Of a DNA stretch of 64,000 nt, positions 3,079 to 30,923 are shown piece by piece. Positions within the stretch are counted from its first letter, which is position 1. The number at the start of each line of letters is the position of its first letter. Source of the stretch: Methylothermaceae bacterium (GTDB lineage: Bacteria > Pseudomonadota > Gammaproteobacteria > Methylococcales > Methylothermaceae); NCBI GenBank assembly GCA_026981855.1, contig JALSIB010000038.1:62001-126000 (forward strand). The letters are read 5' to 3'. The translations under genes were made by a program, and so were the position numbers. The notes beneath the pieces are model-generated. The model saw only the letters and a list, made by a program, of their open reading frames with translations, had not been told where the DNA came from and searched no databases.

Positions 3079-5412
3079 ATGTATTCTGCAAGAACGAAAA
3101 AAAACCTCATCTTGGCATTTTTGACGGCTTCGTCTTTTTCGCTGCAGGCGGACGAGACCGTCGAGCTGGAAACGATGGAGGTGGTGGGAACCACACCGTT
3201 GACCAGTGACGGCGTTTCTCTGGAACGCCTGCCGTCCAATATCCAGACGGCGACCGGTGCCGATCTGGAACGGATGGAGAGTTATTCCATCAGCGATTAT
3301 TTCCGCAATGCGATGGGAGGGGTTTCGGTCAACGATGCCCAGAACAACCCCTTCCAGCCCGATATCCAGTATCGCGGCTTCACGGCGTCTCCCCTGCTGG
3401 GGCTTCCCCAAGGGTTGACGGTTTACTTCAATGGGGTGCGTTTCAACGAACCTTTTGGCGATACCGTCAACTGGGATCTCATTCCCGAGGGCGCCATCGA
3501 TCGCATGGCGCTGCATCCGGGGTCGGATCCCGTTTTCGGTCTCAATACCCTGGGTGGGGCGATCGCCATCCGCAGCAAGACGGGTTTCACCTATCAGGGC
3601 CACCAGCTGGAGGGGTACGCGGGATCCTGGGGACGGCATAACGAGGAGTTGTCGAGTGGCTGGAACAATGGCACGGTGGGGTACTTTTTCCATATACGCC
3701 ATTTTGAGGAGAATGGCTGGCGGGACCGTTCACCCAGTCAGGTCCGGCAAGCGTTCGGTGTACTCAGCTGGCGCGGGGAGGCCTCGGAGCTCAATTTGAC
3801 AGTGTCCGGCAACAACAATGATTTGGTTGGAAACGGCGCGGTGCCGATCCAGCTTTATCGTGAGACGCGTAAGGCGATTTTCACTCATCCCGACAATACC
3901 AAGAACAAGATGCTGTTCGGCAATCTGGACGGAAAGTTGTGGGTCACTGACGACATCCAGATGTCGGGCAATGTGTATTACCGGTACAACGAAACCAATA
4001 CGCTGAATGGCGACGACACCGATTTTGAGGAATGTGAGCCGCCCGATGACGATTTCATGTGCGAGGAGGAAGGGGAGATTGCCGAAGACGTCAGCGGAAA
4101 TGAAATTCTTGCCACGGATGATGTGGAGTCGGCGACGGTCAATACCAGCAAAACCCGCCAGCGGGGATATGGCACGACCATTCAGACTGTTTTTACCCAC
4201 GATCTTTTCGGCCTGGAAAACCGCTTCGTCACCGGCTTCAGTTTCGATCAGGCCCAGATCCGTTTCAAGTTCGATACCGAACTGGGACGCCTGACTCCCA
4301 ACAGGGGGGCTGAAGGCGGGGGCGTTCAGGTGGGAGAATCGCGGGTGCGCCTGGATACGGAGGTCACTCATTATGGCGCATACTTCCTCGAACAGTTCAC
4401 GCCGATCGAGAATCTCACACTCAGCGTTTCAGGGCGTTTCAATTCTACCAGTATCCGGCTGAACGACCGGGCGGGCGATGACTTGGAGGGCAAACACCAT
4501 TACAACCGTTTCAATCCGTCCGGTGGTTTGACCTACCGCATTCTGCCCGCCCTTTCCTTGTATGGCCGCTACAGTGAGAGCAACCGGGCGCCCACGGCGG
4601 TGGAGTTGACCTGCGCCGACCCGGAGTCGCCCTGTAAATTACCCAATGCCTTTCTGGCCGACCCTCCCTTGAAACAGGTGGTTGCCAAAACCTTCGAGGC
4701 AGGGTTGCGCGGGAACGTGGATTCTCTGCCTTTGGGCAAGGGGATCACCACCGCCTTCCAGTGGCACACGGGTTACTTTCACACCGTCAATCACGACGAT
4801 ATCATTTTCATCAGCGCCGGTGATCTCACCAGTGAGGGTTACTTCGACAATGTCGGCAAGACGCGGCGCCAGGGGCTCGAGGCGAACCTGAACGGTATCT
4901 TGCGCAATCCTCTTACCGGAAGGTATTTGTCCGCCCTGAGATATGGATTCAACTACACTTATCTGGATGCGACGTTCCGTACCCCTTTCCTGGCACCAAG
5001 CCCGAACAATCCTTCGGCGGATGGGGCCGGGAACATCAATGTCAGCAGGGGCGATCGGATACCCGGCCTGCCCGAGCACATGTTCAAGTTCAACCTAGAT
5101 TTGGACGTGCTGCCGCAATTCACCATCGGGATGACGGGAATCTACAACAGCGACCGTTACTTCCGGGGTGACGAGGCCAATCTGAACGATCCCTTGCCCG
5201 GCTATTGGGTGTTCAATCTTCGCAGTGCCTACCGATTCAATCGATATGTCCAGTTGTTTGTCCGGGTGGACAACCTGTTTGACAAGCGATACAAGACGTT
5301 TGGTTTGTATGGTGAGGCGGACGAAGTGCTGGGGGATGAGTATGACGATGCCCGGTTTGTGGGTCCGGGAGCGCCCAGGGGTATCTGGGGAGGCATACGC
5401 CTGAGTCTTTGA
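3079..5412 (+). CDS. TonB-dependent outer-membrane receptor
   Basis: Beta-barrel outer-membrane transporter driven by TonB-ExbBD; the substrate is unknown. The product (777 residues) has a lysine-rich start, a hydrophobic signal peptide ending LQA, a TonB-box-like segment (ETMEVVG), and a plug domain (about residues 50-170) containing IQYRGF, YFNGVRFNEPFGDTVNW and GLNTLGGAIAI. The barrel ends in the typical aromatic/aliphatic strand IWGGIRLSL. I chose the ATG at 3079, with GGGGAG 9 bases upstream, over the ATG at 3070. An acidic loop at about residues 312-344 (DDTDFEEC, PPDDDFMCEEEGE) interrupts the barrel and carries two cysteines. Neighbouring isc genes make an iron-related role possible but do not show it. 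Confidence 0.92.
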   Translation: MYSARTKKNLILAFLTASSFSLQADETVELETMEVVGTTPLTSDGVSLERLPSNIQTATGADLERMESYSISDYFRNAMGGVSVNDAQNNPFQPDIQYRGFTASPLLGLPQGLTVYFNGVRFNEPFGDTVNWDLIPEGAIDRMALHPGSDPVFGLNTLGGAIAIRSKTGFTYQGHQLEGYAGSWGRHNEELSSGWNNGTVGYFFHIRHFEENGWRDRSPSQVRQAFGVLSWRGEASELNLTVSGNNNDLVGNGAVPIQLYRETRKAIFTHPDNTKNKMLFGNLDGKLWVTDDIQMSGNVYYRYNETNTLNGDDTDFEECEPPDDDFMCEEEGEIAEDVSGNEILATDDVESATVNTSKTRQRGYGTTIQTVFTHDLFGLENRFVTGFSFDQAQIRFKFDTELGRLTPNRGAEGGGVQVGESRVRLDTEVTHYGAYFLEQFTPIENLTLSVSGRFNSTSIRLNDRAGDDLEGKHHYNRFNPSGGLTYRILPALSLYGRYSESNRAPTAVELTCADPESPCKLPNAFLADPPLKQVVAKTFEAGLRGNVDSLPLGKGITTAFQWHTGYFHTVNHDDIIFISAGDLTSEGYFDNVGKTRRQGLEANLNGILRNPLTGRYLSALRYGFNYTYLDATFRTPFLAPSPNNPSADGAGNINVSRGDRIPGLPEHMFKFNLDLDVLPQFTIGMTGIYNSDRYFRGDEANLNDPLPGYWVFNLRSAYRFNRYVQLFVRVDNLFDKRYKTFGLYGEADEVLGDEYDDARFVGPGAPRGIWGGIRLSL

Positions 5413-20689: not shown

Positions 20690-21432
20690 TCGAGGCGATC
20701 GTCACCGACATCGAGGGCACCACCTCTTCCCTGGCTTTCGTCAAGGAGGTGCTCTTTCCTTACGCCCGGGAGAGACTGGCGGACTTCGTTCGTACCCGCC
20801 GCGATGATCCAGAGGTCAAGGCGGTGGTGGAAGAAATCCGCGCGCTTGCCGGCAGGGAACTCGATCTCGAGCAAGTTATCGCCAGGCTTCTGGAGTGGAG
20901 CGACCAGGACCGGAAGATTCCCCCCCTCAAGACGCTGCAAGGGATGATCTGGCGGTGGGGATACGAAAACGGAGACTTCCAAGGGCACCTCTACGAGGAT
21001 GCGGCTCGGATGCTGAGGCGCTGGAAACTGCAGGGGATTGCGCTCTATGTATTTTCATCGGGCTCGGTGGCGGCCCAGAAACTTCTTTTCGGACATACCG
21101 CATTCGGAGATCTCACGCCGTTGTTTCGCGGTTTTTTCGACACCCGCACCGGCAGCAAGAAAGAACCTGAAAGTTACCGGAAAATTGCGGGGAACATCGG
21201 CCTGGAACCTGGCGCCATTTTGTTTCTTTCCGACGTGGAAGCGGAGCTCGATGCCGCCGCAAAGGCTGGAATGAAGGTTATTCAGGTGGTGAGAGAGGAG
21301 GCGCTGCAACCTCCGTCCGCCTTTCTCCAGGTGTGTGATTTCGAGGAAATCGACAGATTGCTCCAGCAAGGATCAATGGGTCCAGAGGGATCGCCACAAC
21401 CGGCGCATCAGGCTGATGGTGGCAAAAAGTGA
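20686..21432 (+). CDS. mtnC: Enolase-phosphatase E1
   Basis: HAD-superfamily enzyme that enolises and dephosphorylates the diketone intermediate of methionine salvage. The 248-residue product begins MIEAIVTDIEGTTSS with the nucleophile D8 and E10, and has the later HAD motifs YVFSSGS, GSKKEPESY and LFLSDVEAELDAA. The ATG at 20686 overlaps the mtnD stop. Its last 60 bases overlap the 3' end of a convergent membrane-protein gene, which adds a non-conserved hydrophilic tail (GSMGPEGSPQPAHQADGGKK). Confidence 0.95.
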   Translation: MIEAIVTDIEGTTSSLAFVKEVLFPYARERLADFVRTRRDDPEVKAVVEEIRALAGRELDLEQVIARLLEWSDQDRKIPPLKTLQGMIWRWGYENGDFQGHLYEDAARMLRRWKLQGIALYVFSSGSVAAQKLLFGHTAFGDLTPLFRGFFDTRTGSKKEPESYRKIAGNIGLEPGAILFLSDVEAELDAAAKAGMKVIQVVREEALQPPSAFLQVCDFEEIDRLLQQGSMGPEGSPQPAHQADGGKK

Positions 21433-21879
21433 AACGAAATCCAGTGGAAGCAGGATTTCCACCCCGAAAACGAGCATCACGATCAAGGTCCAGGCCGTGG
21501 CATATAACAGACTGGCCAGTTGGAGCCAGCGCAAGAGTTTCCCGTTCCGGGTGATGTCGGTTGCACGGTAGAGCTGGCAGGCGAGGTGTAACAGAAAAAC
21601 GCCGGTGATCAGGTCCAGCCAGGTGATGAAATCCGGCGAACCCTTCCAGCCGAAATACAGCAGGATGCTCCACAGAACGGTGTAGGCGACGCCGCCCACC
21701 ATCAAGTATTTCGACAAACGACGGGGATTCCGCGGTTTCCAGCCGAGACCATGAAAGCGTCCCAAGCCTGAGGGTTGCGCAGGTTCGGGTTTGCCACCTG
21801 GTACTGTCAGAAGGTCGTTATCGCCCGTGTATTCGGCTACATCTTCATAAGTGGCGTGATTGAAGCGGGAGTGATTCAT
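21373..21879 (-). CDS. Membrane protein of unknown function
   Basis: A 168-residue protein with a soluble N-terminal 55 residues (tyrosine-, proline- and histidine-containing) and three or four hydrophobic segments (YLMVGGVAYTVLWSILLYFG, ITWLDLITGVFLLHLAC, LASLLYATAWTLIVMLVFGV, LLPLDFVSLFATISLM). I do not recognise a family. AGAGG lies 8 bases before the ATG. It converges on mtnC with a 60-base overlap of coding sequences. Codon use looks like its neighbours. Confidence 0.65.
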   Translation of the reverse strand: MNHSRFNHATYEDVAEYTGDNDLLTVPGGKPEPAQPSGLGRFHGLGWKPRNPRRLSKYLMVGGVAYTVLWSILLYFGWKGSPDFITWLDLITGVFLLHLACQLYRATDITRNGKLLRWLQLASLLYATAWTLIVMLVFGVEILLPLDFVSLFATISLMRRLWRSLWTH

Positions 21880-22088
21880 GTGCGTGGCCTCTGAGGGGGG
21901 ATCTCAATGCAATTTTAGTTCTTTGGACCTTGCCGGGAGCTGGAGGATTGGCATCCGGATCAGAAATGGCCTGTTTCTTTTTTGAATTTGGCTATTGGTT
22001 CAATTTTTTCGCCGTGTCAGGCGAAATCTTCGACTGACAAAATCAGTCAATCGAACCAGAAAAGTAGTCCCAGCTCACGGTTGGAAGC

Positions 22089-22280
22089 ATGCATCTCTTG
22101 GGTCCGCCAGCCTTCAACGAAAAAACTCTAAATTTAGATTTAGATGACGGCTCCTGTGGCGAATGTAAGGAAATGTTGACGAAGATCAAAGAAAAATATA
22201 AAAAACTTGAAAAAATAAAACCCGAGAAAAGCAGGTGCTCAGCCCGGTCAAGCCGGTTTTTGCTGACCACAATCTCCTGA
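22089..22280 (+). CDS. Doubtful small ORF, 63 residues, CxxC
   Basis: An ATG-initiated frame with a weak GGAAG upstream encodes a lysine-rich peptide with a CGEC motif (DDGSCGECKEML) and KIKEKYKKLEKIK. A promoter-like sequence lies inside it, and no family is recognised. It may be a chance frame in an AT-rich leader. Confidence 0.2.
   Translation: MHLLGPPAFNEKTLNLDLDDGSCGECKEMLTKIKEKYKKLEKIKPEKSRCSARSSRFLLTTIS
22176..22204 (+). promoter_or_regulatory. Putative promoter of the giant protein gene
   Basis: TTGACG (22176-22181) and TAAAAA (22199-22204) are separated by 17 bases, about 100 bases upstream of the ATG at 22301. TATAAA at 22197-22202 gives a 15-base alternative. Assignment is by pattern only. 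Confidence 0.4.
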
Positions 22281-22300
22281 AGTGGAGGGAGGGCAAAGTA

Positions 22301-24217
22301 ATGAAGCTGGAATTCCATTCTGAGAAGCTTGCGGCAGGTCGTTTTTGGTGCGGTTTGGTCATTTTTCTTTGGTTGCTTGCCTTCCCTTTTCCCTCCCTCG
22401 CGTCACAAGGGGATCTGGACAATGATGGCGATGTGGATCGCGACGATCTCACTATCCTGTTGGCCGATCGCAACAAGCCGGTAGAGCAGAGTAACTGTGG
22501 TTCCGCCTGTGACTTGGATGGGGACGGTGTCATCACCGTGCTGGATGCCAGAAAGCTGGTACTTTTATGTACTCTGCCCCGATGCGCCGTCGTCTCCCAC
22601 GAAAACCAACCACCCGTGGCTGATGCGGGAGTCGATCAGGTCATAGCCCTTCCACAGGGGCAGGACGCTCTGGATGTTCAGCTGGATGCCAGTGGTTCGG
22701 GCGATCCCGACGGCACGGTAACAGCCTTTGTTTGGTCCGGCAGCCCCGATCCAGATGACATTTCCCGTCCGACAGTCAGTCTGACGGCGGGTTTTTATAC
22801 ATTCAGGCTGGTGGTTCAGGATGACAAGGGGGCGGTGAGTGGCCCCGACGAGGTGATCGTGAGGATCCTCGGTCCGCCGGAGTTGCTCCCCCTCCCGCGA
22901 GTGACGTCGGCGCCGACCGTGGTGTTGCGGGGGCAGACCCTGCCCGGGGTCGGGGTGGTCGTGCGGGGCGGCAGGCAGGAGGTGAGTGGAACCGCTTCAC
23001 CGGACAGCGGTTTTTTCGCCATTCCGGTCGAACTCAATGAGGGTGAGAACAGGCTGTCAGTCACCGGCAAATATGCGGGTGTCGAAAGTGCCCCTTCGGA
23101 GGTGGTTGTCCGCAGGGAAACCCCTGCGCTGGTGCTGGACAATGTTCAGCCTGAGAGCGGACAGGCTGGGTCCATCGTTACCTTGACCGGTTCAGGGTTC
23201 GTCCCTGACCGCTCGGTCATGGGCGTGTTCTTCAAGGGGAATGGCCTGGAAGGGACGGGTTTCGTGTTGGAGGTGACCGAGACAACGATGAAGGTGGCCG
23301 TTCCCTTCGTGTTTTTGGGGGTGACCGAGGAACAGGATCTCCAGGTCCAGGTCTTCAGCGATACCGATGTCTCCAACTTCATATCCTTTCATATCGTACC
23401 TCCCCAGGATCCCACCCCTGCGGAACGGGGAAACGAAACCGTGGCCCAATTCGATCTCTTGCTGACCCAGATCCAGGAAACCTCGGGCAAGCTGGAGCAG
23501 TTGGTCCATCCGTACGTTCCCGCTGACACCTGGACCTCCATCGAGGAAAACATGCGCCGCCTGGAAGCTTTTGTGCGGGAGGGGCGGGCAGAGATCCTCA
23601 ACACCCGAAGCCCGGACCAGCTTTCAAAGCTGGATGCGGTGTTCGCCAGCGATATCCTTTTGCTGGTCAATCAAAAGCTCGAGCAGGTCAACGAACTGCT
23701 CAGCCATTCCAGTTACGGGGAAGCGGCCTGCAATGTCGGTGAGGTTCTCCAGATCCTCAACGATGTCATCGGCATCTTGGATTGGGTCCACGGGGCACTC
23801 TATGCTGCAGAGGCCGTTTGTTTCTTCTTCTGCCAACCCGCACTGCCCGTGATCATTGCGGCGGAAGAGATCGTCGGTGCCGTGCTCGACGTGCTGGAAT
23901 CCATCCGCGACATTCTCGACGTGGCGGTGCCATCCAGGGCGGACCCGACGAGTTGGCACGTCGACATCGTCACTCCCTATCCAGGCACAGACCCCCACCT
24001 CTTGTTCACCGATACCCGGGATACTCTGACCCTCTACACGGACTTCACCAATGGTGGGGCCAACCGGCTCGTCGGCAGGTTTTCCTCCCTGGGGGGGGGT
24101 GGTGCTCGATCTTCTGGATATCGACATCGGTCGCATCACTGTCGAGGACGTCCAGGTTCCCTCGACTGCAGCCAGTTTCGATGTTTCGTTGATCAACAAT
24201 CTCACCACCGGGGATGA
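22301..24217 (+). CDS. Giant dockerin-like/PKD/IPT surface protein, N-terminal part (frame ends after G9 tract)
   Basis: Secreted multidomain protein whose frame breaks at a G9 run. As read, this part is 638 residues, the last 40 being out-of-frame junk after 24099. Domains: signal peptide (1-35, hydrophobic FWCGLVIFLWLLAFPFP), dockerin-like pair of EF-hand loops (about 37-95: DLDNDGDVDRDD and DLDGDGVITVLDARK), a PKD-like domain (about 101-190: PPVADAGVDQ, DASGSGDPDG), an Ig-like segment (about 195-275), an IPT/TIG domain (about 280-365: VQPESGQAGSIVTLTGSGF) and a helical region (about 380-545). GAGGG precedes the ATG. The rest of the protein continues one base later in the frame ending at 29618; with eight G the product would be 2438 residues. 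Confidence 0.85.
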   Translation: MKLEFHSEKLAAGRFWCGLVIFLWLLAFPFPSLASQGDLDNDGDVDRDDLTILLADRNKPVEQSNCGSACDLDGDGVITVLDARKLVLLCTLPRCAVVSHENQPPVADAGVDQVIALPQGQDALDVQLDASGSGDPDGTVTAFVWSGSPDPDDISRPTVSLTAGFYTFRLVVQDDKGAVSGPDEVIVRILGPPELLPLPRVTSAPTVVLRGQTLPGVGVVVRGGRQEVSGTASPDSGFFAIPVELNEGENRLSVTGKYAGVESAPSEVVVRRETPALVLDNVQPESGQAGSIVTLTGSGFVPDRSVMGVFFKGNGLEGTGFVLEVTETTMKVAVPFVFLGVTEEQDLQVQVFSDTDVSNFISFHIVPPQDPTPAERGNETVAQFDLLLTQIQETSGKLEQLVHPYVPADTWTSIEENMRRLEAFVREGRAEILNTRSPDQLSKLDAVFASDILLLVNQKLEQVNELLSHSSYGEAACNVGEVLQILNDVIGILDWVHGALYAAEAVCFFFCQPALPVIIAAEEIVGAVLDVLESIRDILDVAVPSRADPTSWHVDIVTPYPGTDPHLLFTDTRDTLTLYTDFTNGGANRLVGRFSSLGGGGARSSGYRHRSHHCRGRPGSLDCSQFRCFVDQQSHHRG

Positions 24218-27200
24218 TCCTGACCGGGCCGCCGACAGCCACACCTTGCAGGTTAACGGGCTGCCGTCTGGTGTGACCGTCGCCCATACCCAACTCGATG
24301 TCGAAGGCTCATGTGGGCCGTATCACTATCCCGACAAGGTCTGCGTCGGCGCCGCCTGTGCAGGCGGCGACGTGCCGCAATATCCTGACCTGTATGACAT
24401 CACCGTGATCGAGGCGCCGATCATAGAAAACATGGGGTGGAATGACGAGTTCGGGGGATGGGATGTCTCCGGTCTTGGATTCAGCACGCTGTGCGGAGAG
24501 GTTTTTCAGGTCTACTGGAACGGCGGCTTGGTGTCCTGTGGCCAGATCGAAAACCTGACGTGGGAATCCTTTACCGCAACGGGTACCCTTTTCAGTGAGC
24601 CGGGAAGATTCGAACTGGTTTTGGTGGATCCCAGCGATCCCTCCAATCCCGACAAGCATAGGCAGGGCCCTGCCTATGACGTCGGCCTGCCTCCTTACAA
24701 GGAGGTTTCCATCGACCGCGTCATCCCCGCCAGCAACTTCATCGGGGATCTGGTGACCGTGCGCGGAGATCATTTCATTCCTTACCCCGACAGCATCTTC
24801 ATCACCTTCTTTCTCGACCAGGATCGAAACATCACCAAGACCATCCATCCCCAGGCGGTGAACTATGACTGGTTACCTGGCGGATGGGACAGCTTGACCT
24901 TCAAGGTGCCCGAGGAGCTGCGCCGCTATGCGGGCCAGACCATTCCCTTCGAGGTCAGGATCGAGACGGACACGTCCTCCGGTCAAACGCATGCCTCTTC
25001 CGCATTTACGCCCAGGCAGACGGAGAGTGCCGCGTGGGGTGACCAGGATCTCGTCTCTTTTGGGGAAAGCGGGGGTTATGTTCGCAGTGCGGCGGTCGGG
25101 GATATCGATGGCGATGGCATCAACGATCTGGTGGTTGGGGTGCCCGAGGAACGTTCCGGGTTTGGGGCCGTGAATGGAGCTGTCTATATTGCTTTCGGTC
25201 CTGTCGAAGGAGCGTCTTTGCCCACTGGCCAGCAATACATCGATCTGGCTGAAGGCAGCATCGCCTCCAGCCATTGGGACGTGGTGATTTATGGAGACGA
25301 TACGGACTGTTATCTGGATGGGCAGTTCTGCCGCCGCATCGGTGGCGCGCTGGCGCTGGGGGATGTCAATGGGGATGGGGTCAACGACATACTGATCGGC
25401 ACCACGGATCAGAACGATGCCGGGCTACACGATCTCAACACGGAGGTGTTTCAGGGAAACAAAGGACATTTGCCCGGCAAGGCCTTTGTGTTTTTCGGGA
25501 GGTCCCGTGGCCAGTGGAATCGTTGGTATGAAATCGCCCGCGATGAATACGACGTTCTCATCCATGGCGATCTCCAGAGGGAGCTTGGAAAACAGGTGGC
25601 CATCGGCAACCTGAATGGCGATGCCTATGCGGATCTGATCGTCTCCGCTCCTTCACAACCCTATAATGCCAGCCGCCCGGACGACGACTGGTCGGGCAGG
25701 GTGTACGTGATTTTTGGCCAGGAGACGCTGCCACGCGAGATTCAAGTGGATAACGATCTTCGAGCTGCAGTGGCCGGCGTAATCATCAGTGGTGAGAGTG
25801 AACCCCAGGGACAAACGGTATACAAGGGGGACTTGCTGGGTGAAGGACTGGCGGTCGGCGACATGGACGGGGACGGCCGGGACGATCTTGCCGTGGGGGC
25901 CCCCGGTTTCTTCAATTCTGCTTTTGATGTCCATTATAGAAAGGGAGCGGTTTTTCTGTTCCGGGGTGCAGGATCCTTCGATAGGCCTGGTCATCTGGTC
26001 GCCAGCAGATCGGCCGATCTGGGCGATCAGGATCTTCTCATCGCCGGGCCGACATCCCCGCAGTCTCCTCATCCCCTGCATCGGGGGTGGGAGATCGGGC
26101 GCAGCCTAGTCATAGGGGACCTCGATGGGGATGGCAAGGGGGAACTTGTTCTGGCCGCACCCGATGAATATCTCGATTATCAAGCGATCATCGGCATGCC
26201 TTCGATTCACGAGGATCATATCGGTAGGATTTATCTGATCGAAGGCTCTGCCCTCTCCGGTTCCGGCGGTCAGAGTGTCGTCGATCTGGCCAGGGCGATC
26301 ATTCATGGCACCACGACGATTTCCCGTTTGGGTGGCGCGATGGCGGTAGGGGATGTGAATCTGGATGGTTTCCTGGATCTTGTCGCAGGGGCCCCCGGAA
26401 AACAGGGGTCGGAAGAACCCGGGAGTGTATGGGGTTTCCATGGGTCACCGCAACTGCCCAGTGGGGAGATCCATCTGACCGATCGCTCGGGGGTTCCCGA
26501 GGATTTCATTATCCGTGGGGACCAGGCCCACCCCGAGTCAGCAGGAGGTTTCGGGTCCTTCGTTACGGTGGGGGACCTGGCGCCGTTTGCAGGCGATGAC
26601 GTGATCGTCGTCGATCCGTTGGCGAGGGCACCCGAGCCCTCCGATCCTGCCCACCAGACATGGCGGGAAAAAGCAGGAATGCTTTATGCCTTTTATGAGG
26701 GTGCCCAGTTGTTTTTGCCGCGGATATCGGTATCGCCTGCCAGTGTTGATTTCGGGCAGATCAGTGGCGGCTTCGATCGCAGTGAAACCATTGATGTGGT
26801 CAATATCGGTAGTGGGCGGCTGTTTATCGCTTCTGTGGGTACGACGACCTTTTCACCCTGGTTCAGCCAGACGAACGATTGCAGTGGCCGTTATCTCTTG
26901 CCTCACGATCGTTGCGCCATTTCGGTTTCCCTTGCCACACGTGTGCCTGGGACTTACAGCGGCATCTTGCAGATCATTTCGAACGATCCGGACCAGGGGG
27001 TGATCGATATTCCCGTCCAGGTGGATATTTTGTCCAGCCCGGACATCCAGGTTGCCCCCCGGGATATCGAATTCACCGGTGTGCCTTTGGGGACCACAGC
27101 CTCCCGGGAGGTGACGGTTACCAATGAAGGCAATGCAGCTCTTCGACTGGCTTCTTTTGACCTGAGCGCCTCCGTTCATTATTCGTTCTCGGAGGCTTGT

Positions 27201-29618
27201 CCGGAGGTGCTGGAGCCGCAGGCGAGCTGTAAGGTGACAGTTACGTACGATCCCGGCAATCAGGTCAATGTCACCCATTGGGCAACGTTGGCTGTCCTGT
27301 CCGACGATCCCGATGAGCCGCGGGTCGAGGTGAATCTGTCCGGCCATGGCGTGCCTCCCTTTATCTCGGTGATTCCGACGATCGTGTCTTTCGGCAGCGA
27401 TTTGTCCGAAGTCCAGATTACGCTCAACAACACCAGCGATTCGGCCGCTCTGCAGTGGAATCTTACAGAGGATCTTCCGGCATGGTTGAGTGTTTCCGAA
27501 TATGGCGGTGTTCTTCCTCCACAGGGCAGTAAGACATTGCTGTTGAATGTCGACAGGAGTGGCCTTGCGGCCGGGTCCTACGCTCATACCCTCACCATCG
27601 TTTCCAATGGGGGTAGTCAGTCGGTTTCCCTGTCCATGGAAGCCCCAACCTTCCTTTCTGCTTCTCCTGCATCGATTGAGTTCGGACAGGCCAGGCAGTG
27701 GGCGGTACTGCCAATCCGAAACACCAGCAACTCGGATACGGTGCTCGAGTGGCAAATCGAGGATGCGCTCCCCCCCTGGCTGTCTGCTTCCCCTTCGTCT
27801 GGCCAGGTGCCAGTGGGGTCAACCCAGAGTGTGCTGCTTTCGGTGGACCGTAGCGGCCTTGCCGTCGGGGAATACCAGCATACGCTTTCCCTGATTTCGA
27901 ACGGCGGGAATCAACAGATCGGGATCGCCCTGACAGTGGCGGAGCCGCTGGTCTCCTTCGCCCATGCCTTTGGCGGTGAAGGGGGTGAATATGCGGCTGC
28001 CGTCCGGGTGACTTCCGACGGTGGGTTCATACTTATCGGCCTTACCAACTCCTTTGGCGGCGGCAACGAAGACGTCTGGCTCCTGAAACTGGATGGAAAT
28101 GGCCATCTCCAGTGGGAGAAGACAATCGGTGCCATCAACGCGGAACGTGGCTACGATATCCAGGAAACCGCCGACCACGGCTATGTTCTGGTGGCGGGCG
28201 GACTGGATGACGACGGCGATTACAATCTTCTGGTGTTCAAGCTGACCTCGCAGGGCGAGATCGAGTGGCAGAGATCCTATGGCGGCAGCCCCGATGACAA
28301 CTGGGGAGCTTGGGGTATCAACTTCAGTATTCGCCAAACCGGCGAGGGAGGATATGTCGTTGCCGGTAATACCCAGGGCTTCGGTGCAGCGAGAGACGAT
28401 GTCTGGATCCTCAAACTCGATGCCCGTGGCGAGGTGGAGTGGCAGAAACGCTACGGCGGCAGCGGCGACGACTACGCCAACTGGATCGAGCAGACGGAGG
28501 ATGCGGGTTACATCGTCGCGGGGGTGACGGAATCCTTCGGAGCGGGCGGTCCTGACATATGGGTGCTCAAGCTGGATGCCAGTGGTGAAGTTGAGTGGCA
28601 GAAGACCTACGGGGGCAGTGACTGGGATCTGGGCTATACCATCCGGCCGACCACCGATGGCGGATACGTGCTGCTCGGCACCACATTCACTTTCGGCGGG
28701 GCCTGGGTGCTCAAGCTCGACGCCTCGGGTGATGTCACCTGGCAGAAGGCTTATGGCGGATTCGATGGACGCGGCACTGATATCCGCCAGACCCAGGAGG
28801 GGGGTTATATCCTCAGTGGGTCCCTCTATACGCCTGGAGGAGGAACCGATGCCTGGTTGCTCAAGCTGGATGCGGCCGGAGAAATCGAGTGGCAGCGGAC
28901 CTACGGTGGCGACAGGGTGGATGAATTCCTCACCGTGGAGCAGACACCCGAAGGCGGTTTTGTGGCAGGGGGGGACAGTTGGTCGTTCAGGTCGGATCAA
29001 TATGGCGCTGATGTCGAACTCTGGGTGGTCCGGACCGACCGGTGGGGCAGTCTGGGCAACGTCTGCAATAACGTCAAAGTGCCACAGGTGTCGGCGGTGG
29101 CCACGGACGTCATTCCTCAGCAGAGCAGCGTGGACCCCATAGAAACCACGGCAGAACCGGTTGAGTTGGGATTTGCTTCCATGGATTCCGCAAGTGATGT
29201 TCAAGCCGTCTGTCTCTTGACCGAGAGCGAATGGCAACAGATGGAAGATCTGGACATCAATGACATACCCGCAAATCTGGATTTCAGCGCGGTGCCTGTC
29301 GAGCCCGGAGTGAGGGTCAGTCAATCCATCGTCGTTCAGAATCTTGGGCGTGCGGAAAGGCTGACTTTGGATCTCAGCCTTCTTGGCGATCCGGATTTCA
29401 CACTGTTCAGCAGTTGTCCTGACCAGCTTCTGCCGGCGCAGAGCTGCAATGTGGATGTTTCGTTCAGTCCCCAACAGGAGGGGGAACGCTCCGCCCGGCT
29501 GATCGTTCAATCCAACGACCCGGATGAAAGCACCTTTCAGGTGGACATCACGGGAACGGGCCAGGAATGTATTAAGTGCGAGGGTGGTTCCATTATTCCG
29601 GTTCCAGGAGGAGGTTAG
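24051..29618 (+). CDS. Giant surface protein, C-terminal part: FG-GAP propeller, choice-of-anchor D, BACON-like and second propeller domains
   Basis: Continuation of the preceding gene in the +1 frame; the ATG at 24051 is only the first in-frame start and is probably not used, true homology beginning near 24095 (VVLDLLDIDIGRIT). Counting from 24051: an IPT-like domain (about 205-305), seven FG-GAP/integrin-type blades (about 328-885) with calcium loops such as GDIDGDGINDLVVG, GDVNGDGVNDILIG and GDMDGDGRDDLAVG, two choice-of-anchor D domains (about 890-1100), two BACON-like domains (about 1107-1293, WLSVS and NVDRSGLAAGSY), a second propeller of about seven repeats (1300-1660; DGGYIVAG, WVLKLDASGEVEWQK, YGGS), and a last choice-of-anchor D domain (1730-1836). 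All fit an extracellular adhesion or scaffold protein; no enzyme motif is seen. Confidence 0.85.
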   Translation: MVGPTGSSAGFPPWGGVVLDLLDIDIGRITVEDVQVPSTAASFDVSLINNLTTGDDPDRAADSHTLQVNGLPSGVTVAHTQLDVEGSCGPYHYPDKVCVGAACAGGDVPQYPDLYDITVIEAPIIENMGWNDEFGGWDVSGLGFSTLCGEVFQVYWNGGLVSCGQIENLTWESFTATGTLFSEPGRFELVLVDPSDPSNPDKHRQGPAYDVGLPPYKEVSIDRVIPASNFIGDLVTVRGDHFIPYPDSIFITFFLDQDRNITKTIHPQAVNYDWLPGGWDSLTFKVPEELRRYAGQTIPFEVRIETDTSSGQTHASSAFTPRQTESAAWGDQDLVSFGESGGYVRSAAVGDIDGDGINDLVVGVPEERSGFGAVNGAVYIAFGPVEGASLPTGQQYIDLAEGSIASSHWDVVIYGDDTDCYLDGQFCRRIGGALALGDVNGDGVNDILIGTTDQNDAGLHDLNTEVFQGNKGHLPGKAFVFFGRSRGQWNRWYEIARDEYDVLIHGDLQRELGKQVAIGNLNGDAYADLIVSAPSQPYNASRPDDDWSGRVYVIFGQETLPREIQVDNDLRAAVAGVIISGESEPQGQTVYKGDLLGEGLAVGDMDGDGRDDLAVGAPGFFNSAFDVHYRKGAVFLFRGAGSFDRPGHLVASRSADLGDQDLLIAGPTSPQSPHPLHRGWEIGRSLVIGDLDGDGKGELVLAAPDEYLDYQAIIGMPSIHEDHIGRIYLIEGSALSGSGGQSVVDLARAIIHGTTTISRLGGAMAVGDVNLDGFLDLVAGAPGKQGSEEPGSVWGFHGSPQLPSGEIHLTDRSGVPEDFIIRGDQAHPESAGGFGSFVTVGDLAPFAGDDVIVVDPLARAPEPSDPAHQTWREKAGMLYAFYEGAQLFLPRISVSPASVDFGQISGGFDRSETIDVVNIGSGRLFIASVGTTTFSPWFSQTNDCSGRYLLPHDRCAISVSLATRVPGTYSGILQIISNDPDQGVIDIPVQVDILSSPDIQVAPRDIEFTGVPLGTTASREVTVTNEGNAALRLASFDLSASVHYSFSEACPEVLEPQASCKVTVTYDPGNQVNVTHWATLAVLSDDPDEPRVEVNLSGHGVPPFISVIPTIVSFGSDLSEVQITLNNTSDSAALQWNLTEDLPAWLSVSEYGGVLPPQGSKTLLLNVDRSGLAAGSYAHTLTIVSNGGSQSVSLSMEAPTFLSASPASIEFGQARQWAVLPIRNTSNSDTVLEWQIEDALPPWLSASPSSGQVPVGSTQSVLLSVDRSGLAVGEYQHTLSLISNGGNQQIGIALTVAEPLVSFAHAFGGEGGEYAAAVRVTSDGGFILIGLTNSFGGGNEDVWLLKLDGNGHLQWEKTIGAINAERGYDIQETADHGYVLVAGGLDDDGDYNLLVFKLTSQGEIEWQRSYGGSPDDNWGAWGINFSIRQTGEGGYVVAGNTQGFGAARDDVWILKLDARGEVEWQKRYGGSGDDYANWIEQTEDAGYIVAGVTESFGAGGPDIWVLKLDASGEVEWQKTYGGSDWDLGYTIRPTTDGGYVLLGTTFTFGGAWVLKLDASGDVTWQKAYGGFDGRGTDIRQTQEGGYILSGSLYTPGGGTDAWLLKLDAAGEIEWQRTYGGDRVDEFLTVEQTPEGGFVAGGDSWSFRSDQYGADVELWVVRTDRWGSLGNVCNNVKVPQVSAVATDVIPQQSSVDPIETTAEPVELGFASMDSASDVQAVCLLTESEWQQMEDLDINDIPANLDFSAVPVEPGVRVSQSIVVQNLGRAERLTLDLSLLGDPDFTLFSSCPDQLLPAQSCNVDVSFSPQQEGERSARLIVQSNDPDESTFQVDITGTGQECIKCEGGSIIPVPGGG
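24091..24099 (+). repeat. Nine-G homopolymer at the frameshift, candidate phase-variation tract
   Basis: The run sits exactly where the reading frame of the giant protein changes. The upstream frame continues to 24217, the downstream frame is open across it; removal of one G (or gain of two) makes a single 2438-residue frame. Slipped-strand mispairing at such tracts is a known ON/OFF switch; a sequencing error or fixed mutation gives the same picture. Confidence 0.75.
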
Positions 29619-29685
29619 CCAGCGACTTCCAGGGATGGTTGGGAGCGGAAATTCCACCCAATGAAAATTGCAAGAGGATAGGGAG

Positions 29686-30291
29686 ATGAAAAAGAAATCA
29701 ATATGTTATGGATTGTTTCTAGTCGTCACTTTCTTGCTGGGCATTTCTTCCGCCCGGGCGATCACCCTGGGCTTCGAGCCCGCGAATCAGGATGTTCCCT
29801 TTGGCGCCAGCGTGGAGGTGGGGGTGGCCCTATCCGATCTGGGAGCCGGCACCACCCCCTCGCTCGGCACCTATGACCTGGACATCTCTTTCGATCCCGC
29901 CGTGCTCGGTTTTACGGGGGTTAGCTTTGGCGATCCCGTCTTGGGGAACCAGCTTGATTTATTTGGCCTTGGAAGCGTGCAGAGTAGCGACTTGGGAGGC
30001 GGCGTTGTCAACGTATTTGAACTATCGTTGGATCTTATAACGGATCTGATCGCCTTACAGGCGGGGGATTTCACCTTGTTTACCCTCTCCTTCGATACCC
30101 TGAGCCGGGGGATCAGTCCGTTATCCATTTCCATCAATGCGCTGGGTGATGAAAATGGAAATCCTCTGGATGCTGATACCACCGCTGGTTCCATCTCGGT
30201 GCCCGAGCCTGACTCGCTGCTTCTATTGGGGTTGGGTCTTGCCGGGCTGATGCGATTCAGGTACTTGAGGGGCGCGAGGTGCTCTTCCTGA
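29686..30291 (+). CDS. Cohesin-like PEP-CTERM sorting-signal protein
   Basis: A 201-residue exported protein. It has a signal peptide (KKKSICYGLFLVVTFLLG, cleavage near ARA), a beta-rich body of about 145 residues that matches the cohesin-like PEP-CTERM pattern (LGTYDLDISFDPAVLGFTGV, then FTLFTLSFDTLSRG and ALGDENGNPLD), and a C-terminal VPEPDSLLLLGLGLAGLMRF helix with arginines, the PEP-CTERM signal processed by exosortase. The ATG at 29686 has AGAGGATAGGGAG upstream and is preferred to a TTG at 29668. It lies 67 bases after the giant dockerin-like gene, so a cohesin-dockerin pair anchored at the envelope is a reasonable inference. Confidence 0.85.
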   Translation: MKKKSICYGLFLVVTFLLGISSARAITLGFEPANQDVPFGASVEVGVALSDLGAGTTPSLGTYDLDISFDPAVLGFTGVSFGDPVLGNQLDLFGLGSVQSSDLGGGVVNVFELSLDLITDLIALQAGDFTLFTLSFDTLSRGISPLSISINALGDENGNPLDADTTAGSISVPEPDSLLLLGLGLAGLMRFRYLRGARCSS

Positions 30292-30331
30292 ACCAAGGCT
30301 TCAATTCCCGCAACGCCTTTCGGGCTTTCCT

Positions 30332-30351
30332 TCCCTTGTCGAAGGGATTTT
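30332..30351 (+). terminator. Short Rho-independent terminator-like hairpin
   Basis: TCCCTT and AAGGGA pair around GTCG and are followed by TTTT, 40 bases after the PEP-CTERM gene stop. The stem and T run are short, so efficiency is uncertain. Confidence 0.45.
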
Positions 30352-30524
30352 AGACGTCAGACCTGGCACGGAAGCCAACATCCCGCCCATTCCACCTGGA
30401 ACCGTTCTCCACGGCGAGACCGTGGGTAAACAATGATCCCCGCTTTCTACCCCGAAAGGCGTGTCTGGGGTAGTATGTAATGTACGCGCAATGTCATTTT
30501 TTATATCCGATTGAAGGAGAAACG

Positions 30525-30923
30525 ATGTATAGGATCATATGCTTGTTGGGCTGTGTCTTGGTTGTGGGGTTGGCCGGTTGCGCCGGTCGGGGCGGGGTTT
30601 CCGCGTCCGCTGCCTCCCGCCCGGAGGCGCCGAAACAGGTCAACGACTTTCCCACCCAGGCCCGGGTGGAGTACGTTTTTCAATGCATGCGCGACCACGG
30701 CGGCCAGAATTACGACAATCTTTACCACTGCAGCTGTATGGTGGATGAGCTCGCCAAGAAGATGTCCTATCAGACCTATTCCGAAGCGGTGGTGTTCAAG
30801 AATCTGCGTTCCATGCCGGGCGAGCAGGGCGGGCTCTTTCGCGATCCGCCTCAGGCCAGGCGGTTGAGAAACGAATTGCGGCAGGCCGAGCGAGAGGCCG
30901 AGGAAGTTTGTTTCGTAAAATGA
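30525..30923 (+). CDS. Predicted lipoprotein with conserved cysteines, unknown function
   Basis: A 132-residue protein with a lipoprotein signal (MYRIICLLGCVLVVGLAGC; lipobox LAGC, acylated C19). The mature part has RVEYVFQCMRDHGGQNYDNLYHCSCMVDELAKKMSYQTYSEA: a cysteine near residue 66 and a CSC pair about 16 residues later, which could form a disulfide or metal site, and a charged helical C-terminus ending in another cysteine. AAGGAG lies 5 bases before the ATG; an upstream ATG at 30480 would spoil the signal. It is immediately upstream of formate dehydrogenase genes and 4.7 kb before xoxF, so a periplasmic accessory role in C1 metabolism is possible but only by position. Confidence 0.75.
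   Translation: MYRIICLLGCVLVVGLAGCAGRGGVSASAASRPEAPKQVNDFPTQARVEYVFQCMRDHGGQNYDNLYHCSCMVDELAKKMSYQTYSEAVVFKNLRSMPGEQGGLFRDPPQARRLRNELRQAEREAEEVCFVK

Follow-up and report, generated by a model that had tools for sequence, protein, structure and literature searches.

The DNA analysed here, a window of 64,000 nucleotides, belongs to a Methylothermaceae methanotroph: its MxaF is 94% identical to that of a Methylothermaceae MAG and 89% identical to that of a Methylohalobius MAG, and an initial annotation made from the letters was right to place it in a methylotroph. The forward strand carries a giant gene that is assembled in two parts. It starts with the ATG at 22301, which is preceded by a ribosome-site-like stretch (GGAGGGAGGG). 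As assembled, the 5′ part (22301–24217, forward strand) encodes 638 residues, comprising a signal peptide, dockerin, PKD and TIG/IPT domains, a helical stretch and then about 42 out-of-frame residues. The 3′ part (24102–29618, forward strand) lies in the +1 frame, is open for 1838 codons and encodes, in this order, FG-GAP repeats, choice-of-anchor D/ASH domains, BACON-like domains, beta-propeller-type repeats and a final choice-of-anchor D domain. Between the two parts, a tract of nine consecutive G (G9; 24091–24099, forward strand) was identified as the point of frame change from the letters, the frame translations and a codon-usage scan.

The length of this tract sets the frame of the giant gene. 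Translation from the ATG at 22301 stops after 638 residues with nine G and after 630 residues with ten, and with eight G the whole of 22301–29618 becomes one frame of 2438 residues with zero internal stops. The presence of the nine G and the restoration of a single frame by removal of one of them, both asserted by the initial annotation, were therefore confirmed. Its statement that the frames meet exactly at the tract holds in part. The two frames are open together from about 24028 to 24217, so that stops alone do not fix the change point; in the codon-usage scan, however, the best switch points (24092, 24095 and 24098, which score equally) all lie within the tract, and 52% of the switch-point weight falls in 24089–24101. 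After the tract, the downstream frame is the better one by codon usage (−5.46 versus −6.62 bits/codon). Further stop codons downstream, together with a fixed G9 in all relatives, had been named beforehand as a sign against the proposed switch; no stop occurs in the 1838 codons that follow the tract. No homopolymer in the giant gene is longer than this G9, the next being C7 and G7. Since GGG is a common glycine codon in this gene (71 of 261), the tract needs no special selection, and its coincidence with the frame break is the sole feature of it that stands out.

The N-terminus of the giant protein is that of a secreted, surface-type protein, as had been proposed. The signal peptide is followed by a type I dockerin domain with two Ca-binding-type repeats (22409–22555, forward strand; PF00404, cut-off 22.9), which scores 25.8 bits when the first 100 residues are scanned and 20.9 bits when the whole 638-residue part is used. 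Next come a PKD-like domain (22604–22843, forward strand; PF22352/PF18911, 26.4/25.1 bits, slightly under the cut-off of 27) and an IPT/TIG domain (23132–23362, forward strand; PF01833, 21.6 bits, cut-off 20.9). The giant protein itself has no PEP-CTERM motif. A Pfam scan of the read-through junction returned no domain above cut-off, and an AlphaFold model of this junction, made without an alignment, had a pLDDT of 36, too low to be informative.

The cohesin neighbour, a paralogous pair and the history of the locus

Fifty bases 3′ of the stop codon of the giant gene lies a neighbouring gene (29668–30291, forward strand) with a cohesin domain and a PEP-CTERM sorting signal (PF07589, 29.4 bits). 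The cohesin assignment is borderline, with PF00963 scores of 23.7–24.1 bits against a cut-off of 24.1: 23.7 bits in the scan of the gene, and at the cut-off in the genome search. The product of this gene is the presumed anchor partner of the dockerin in the giant protein, as judged from sequence. The arrangement is similar to cohesin–dockerin pairs known outside cellulosomes, in that a large secreted dockerin protein adjoins a cohesin protein. Unlike in those pairs, the cohesin here bears a PEP-CTERM signal, and hence its handling would fall to an exosortase and not to a sortase or an S-layer domain; one exosortase gene is present in the genome (PF09721, E 3.6e-80). None of the papers searched combines the terms cohesin, dockerin and PEP-CTERM.

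Across ten genomes of the genus, the only cohesins found are this neighbour and one belonging to a second, intact pair on contig C51 (L197:1367–5148). In the C51 pair, a cohesin/PEP-CTERM gene (cohesin 34–35 bits with PF00963) is followed directly by a dockerin/FG-GAP gene, which also contains an in-frame G8 near its 3′ end. The 1030-residue product of the latter has at its N-terminus a dockerin region with 50% identity to that of the giant protein, together with FG-GAP repeats in one open frame. Because this paralogue joins dockerin and FG-GAP in a single frame, it provides the best evidence that the halves of the giant protein form one chain, and we conclude that both are parts of a single gene. 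A homologue spanning the junction was found in none of 40 relatives, 369 genomes of the class, the genome contigs, plasmids or PDB sequences, and the ancestral reading thus rests on the layout of the C51 paralogue and on codon usage.

The giant gene and the cohesin gene occupy an insert of about 8–9 kb (21880–30479) that is absent from congeners at the conserved mtn–fds–mxaF locus. The insert is flanked on the left by a gene at 21373–21879 (reverse strand) and on the right by a gene at 30480–30923 (forward strand), the latter conserved beside mtnC/fds in congeners; in the closest congener (G005) the homologues of the two flanking genes directly adjoin one another. The order in congeners is mtnB–mtnD–mtnC and then the 30480–30923 homologue, with fdsB–fdsA–mxaF next where the fetched stretch extends that far, and in nine congeners neither a giant gene nor a cohesin gene lies between these genes. 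In one of these (G007) the locus is only a fragment, yet the giant gene was found nowhere in that genome. Since both genes are missing from the congeners, they constitute a lineage-specific insert.

G/C tracts in the genome and in congeners

The genome (2.75 Mb, 60 contigs) contains 25 distinct G/C tracts of nine or more (28 overlapping matches). Markov models of the window predict 31–123 such tracts, and there is thus no enrichment. The surroundings of all 25 were read. At least eight are in frame inside Pfam domains that span them, in hemB (ALAD), rseP, priA, argC, anmK, fabH, ggt (gamma-glutamyltranspeptidase) and a SpoIIE-type phosphatase gene; two more fall inside long open frames (L046 and L051), and the remaining tracts are intergenic, close to the ends of genes or in unnamed frames. 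We saw no preference of these tracts for surface or modification genes, many of them being in frame in housekeeping genes. Only two of the 25 were found to break a gene: the G9 of the giant gene and a C10 in a fadE (acyl-CoA dehydrogenase) homologue, located at 3700–3709 of contig C13 in the same genome (G000; L044:2701–2710). This C10 is the sole G/C tract of ten or more that was found within a gene. The fadE homologues in three congeners (G005, G006 and G001) are open through that point and have no homopolymer there, and this break, too, may stem from a slip or from an error in the consensus. Codon scores had also flagged frame breaks at several others of the 25 tracts, at kinase/hydrogenase, fabH/fabD, uvrB/cysC and methyltransferase/rnhA, which proved to be gene ends or starts. 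Similarly, a G10 beside a beta-propeller paralogue on contig C13, considered as a second surface-gene tract, turned out to be located in the adjacent fadE homologue.

Tracts of another kind were observed in two congeners, G007 and G002, where promoters of the form TTGACAT-C12/13-N6–8-CATAAT-like precede secreted astacin-like metalloprotease genes. The C12–C13 run sits between the TTGACA −35 and the CATAAT-like −10 elements (L168:2893–2904, L169:2661–2673, L164:3177–3188, L167:2510–2521 and L205 near 1425). G007 has two such protease genes, another tract at a contig end and one interrupted copy (C7TC4), and G002 has one such gene. The reversed promoter pattern did not match anywhere in these genomes, and a search of 369 genomes of the class gave only two matches, with C9. 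The spacers measure about 19–21 bases, and loss of a few C would bring them to the optimum of 17; promoter-spacer phase variation is a candidate mode of control at these astacin-like genes. These promoter tracts look more contingency-like than the G9 of the window. G002 also contains G/C tracts of 19–23 (L159:3539–3561, L160:329–347 and L161:3044–3064), of which two lie in intergenic repeats that resemble each other, with CCCTCCACCGCTTGC adjoining the G run; these tracts could represent repeat elements or artefacts of sequencing.

Origin and consequences of the frame break

We give an even chance to the following reading: a lineage-specific giant surface-protein gene, whose product would be tethered through its dockerin to the neighbouring cohesin/PEP-CTERM protein, has lost its frame because a slippage-prone G tract changed in length by one base. 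The tract is the likely slippage site because no other homopolymer in the gene is as long and the best-scoring switch points fall within it, and a slip of one base at this position would suffice to shift the frame. The gene as sequenced would yield no more than the 638-residue secreted dockerin–PKD–IPT stub, in line with the truncated secreted fragment predicted by the initial annotation, and the G9 allele would not give rise to the FG-GAP/propeller body. The stub keeps its dockerin and could still occupy the cohesin anchor, and early termination might, by polarity, reduce expression of the cohesin gene that follows. Slippage during replication could bring the tract back to eight G or extend it to eleven, and either length would again encode the whole protein; in principle, therefore, the lesion would be reversible, and in a weak sense phase-variable. 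We found no sign of selection for such reversibility, given the lack of enrichment or surface-gene preference among the tracts and the common use of the glycine codon. The long and intact downstream frame implies a break that arose recently, that does not exist in the living cell or that is often reversed. On the preferred reading the break is recent, in line with 1838 downstream codons free of stops and codon usage in favour of the downstream frame, and it is probably reversible.

It is possible, although somewhat unlikely, that the ninth G is an assembly or consensus error, with a true length of G8 and an intact giant protein. This is a draft genome in 60 contigs, the C10 in fadE likewise breaks its gene, the lengths of G tracts in databases may differ from those in real populations (PMC9187656), and singleton frameshifted genes have been ascribed to indels or sequencing errors (PMC3711429). 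Against this, at least eight Pfam-verified genes are in frame across G9 tracts in the same assembly, which indicates that G9 is usually called correctly, the per-tract error being bounded only at about 26–31% by the finding that none of the 8–10 in-frame G9 genes is wrong.

The initial annotation had proposed a phase-variable contingency switch. In an evolved switch, a hypermutable tract would determine whether the tethered giant protein is made (on, G8/G11) or not (off, G9/G10). The analysis did not establish such a locus, and we consider an evolved switch of this kind quite unlikely. The genomes of Neisseria and Campylobacter are rich in long tracts, which are found chiefly in surface genes. 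The tract described here is like their poly-G/poly-C translational contingency loci in that a homopolymer lies inside a surface-associated coding sequence; unlike in those genomes, tracts of nine or more are no commoner than expected, lie mostly harmlessly in frame or near gene ends, and in the one other case of a broken gene fall in a metabolic gene. The lack of enrichment and the many in-frame tracts in housekeeping genes argue that this is not a tuned system. In addition, nine is near the lower end of the lengths of poly-G contingency tracts, and GGG is common enough to make special selection unnecessary. Points in favour of a switch are that the target is a surface protein, that the paralogous dockerin gene has its in-frame G8, that two congeners have C12–C13 tracts in promoter spacers of secreted proteases, and that poly-G switches in surface genes are indeed known elsewhere. 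In the sortase-dependent pilin genes of Bifidobacterium breve, a G tract splits the secretion signal from the anchor, tract lengths are mixed within one culture, both the length mixtures and their effects on pili have been measured, and pilus clusters throughout the genus repeatedly contain such tracts (PMC9187656). As in these pilins, the secretion signal and the downstream part of the giant protein lie in two frames with a G tract between them, which a one-base slip would join; the difference is that here a single nine-G tract is known, in one genome and from assembled sequence. The B. breve case shows that such an anatomy can be a real switch.

Recoding seems very improbable. In such a case, some full-length protein would arise from G9 DNA because RNA polymerase slips on the G run or the ribosome slips there by +1. 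A G run allows tRNA-Gly or RNA to re-pair in any frame, and the downstream frame is intact; but a shift of +1 or −2 would be required in place of the usual −1, there is no conserved family, and we found no stimulatory RNA structure for programmed frameshifting in the 121 nt 3′ of the tract, which fold no better than shuffles (z −0.40). That these are two separate genes, the second starting near the downstream-frame ATG at 24051, is scarcely credible, as its product would have no signal peptide despite extracellular-type domains and the C51 paralogue carries dockerin and FG-GAP in one chain.

The one-base slip in the G tract is accordingly the reading that we prefer. A broader proposal, that this methanotroph lineage makes use of slippage contingency, with a G-tract switch for the dockerin-tethered 2438-residue protein and poly-C promoter-spacer switches for astacin-like proteases in the congeners, is decidedly doubtful. 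In the papers searched, phase variation and methanotrophs are linked only by incidental mentions. If the slip is fixed, or is a consensus error, the giant gene is nothing more than a broken or wrongly sequenced gene of the usual sort. A tract that does switch would represent translational phase variation in a free-living methanotroph, tied to a little-studied cohesin/PEP-CTERM display system.
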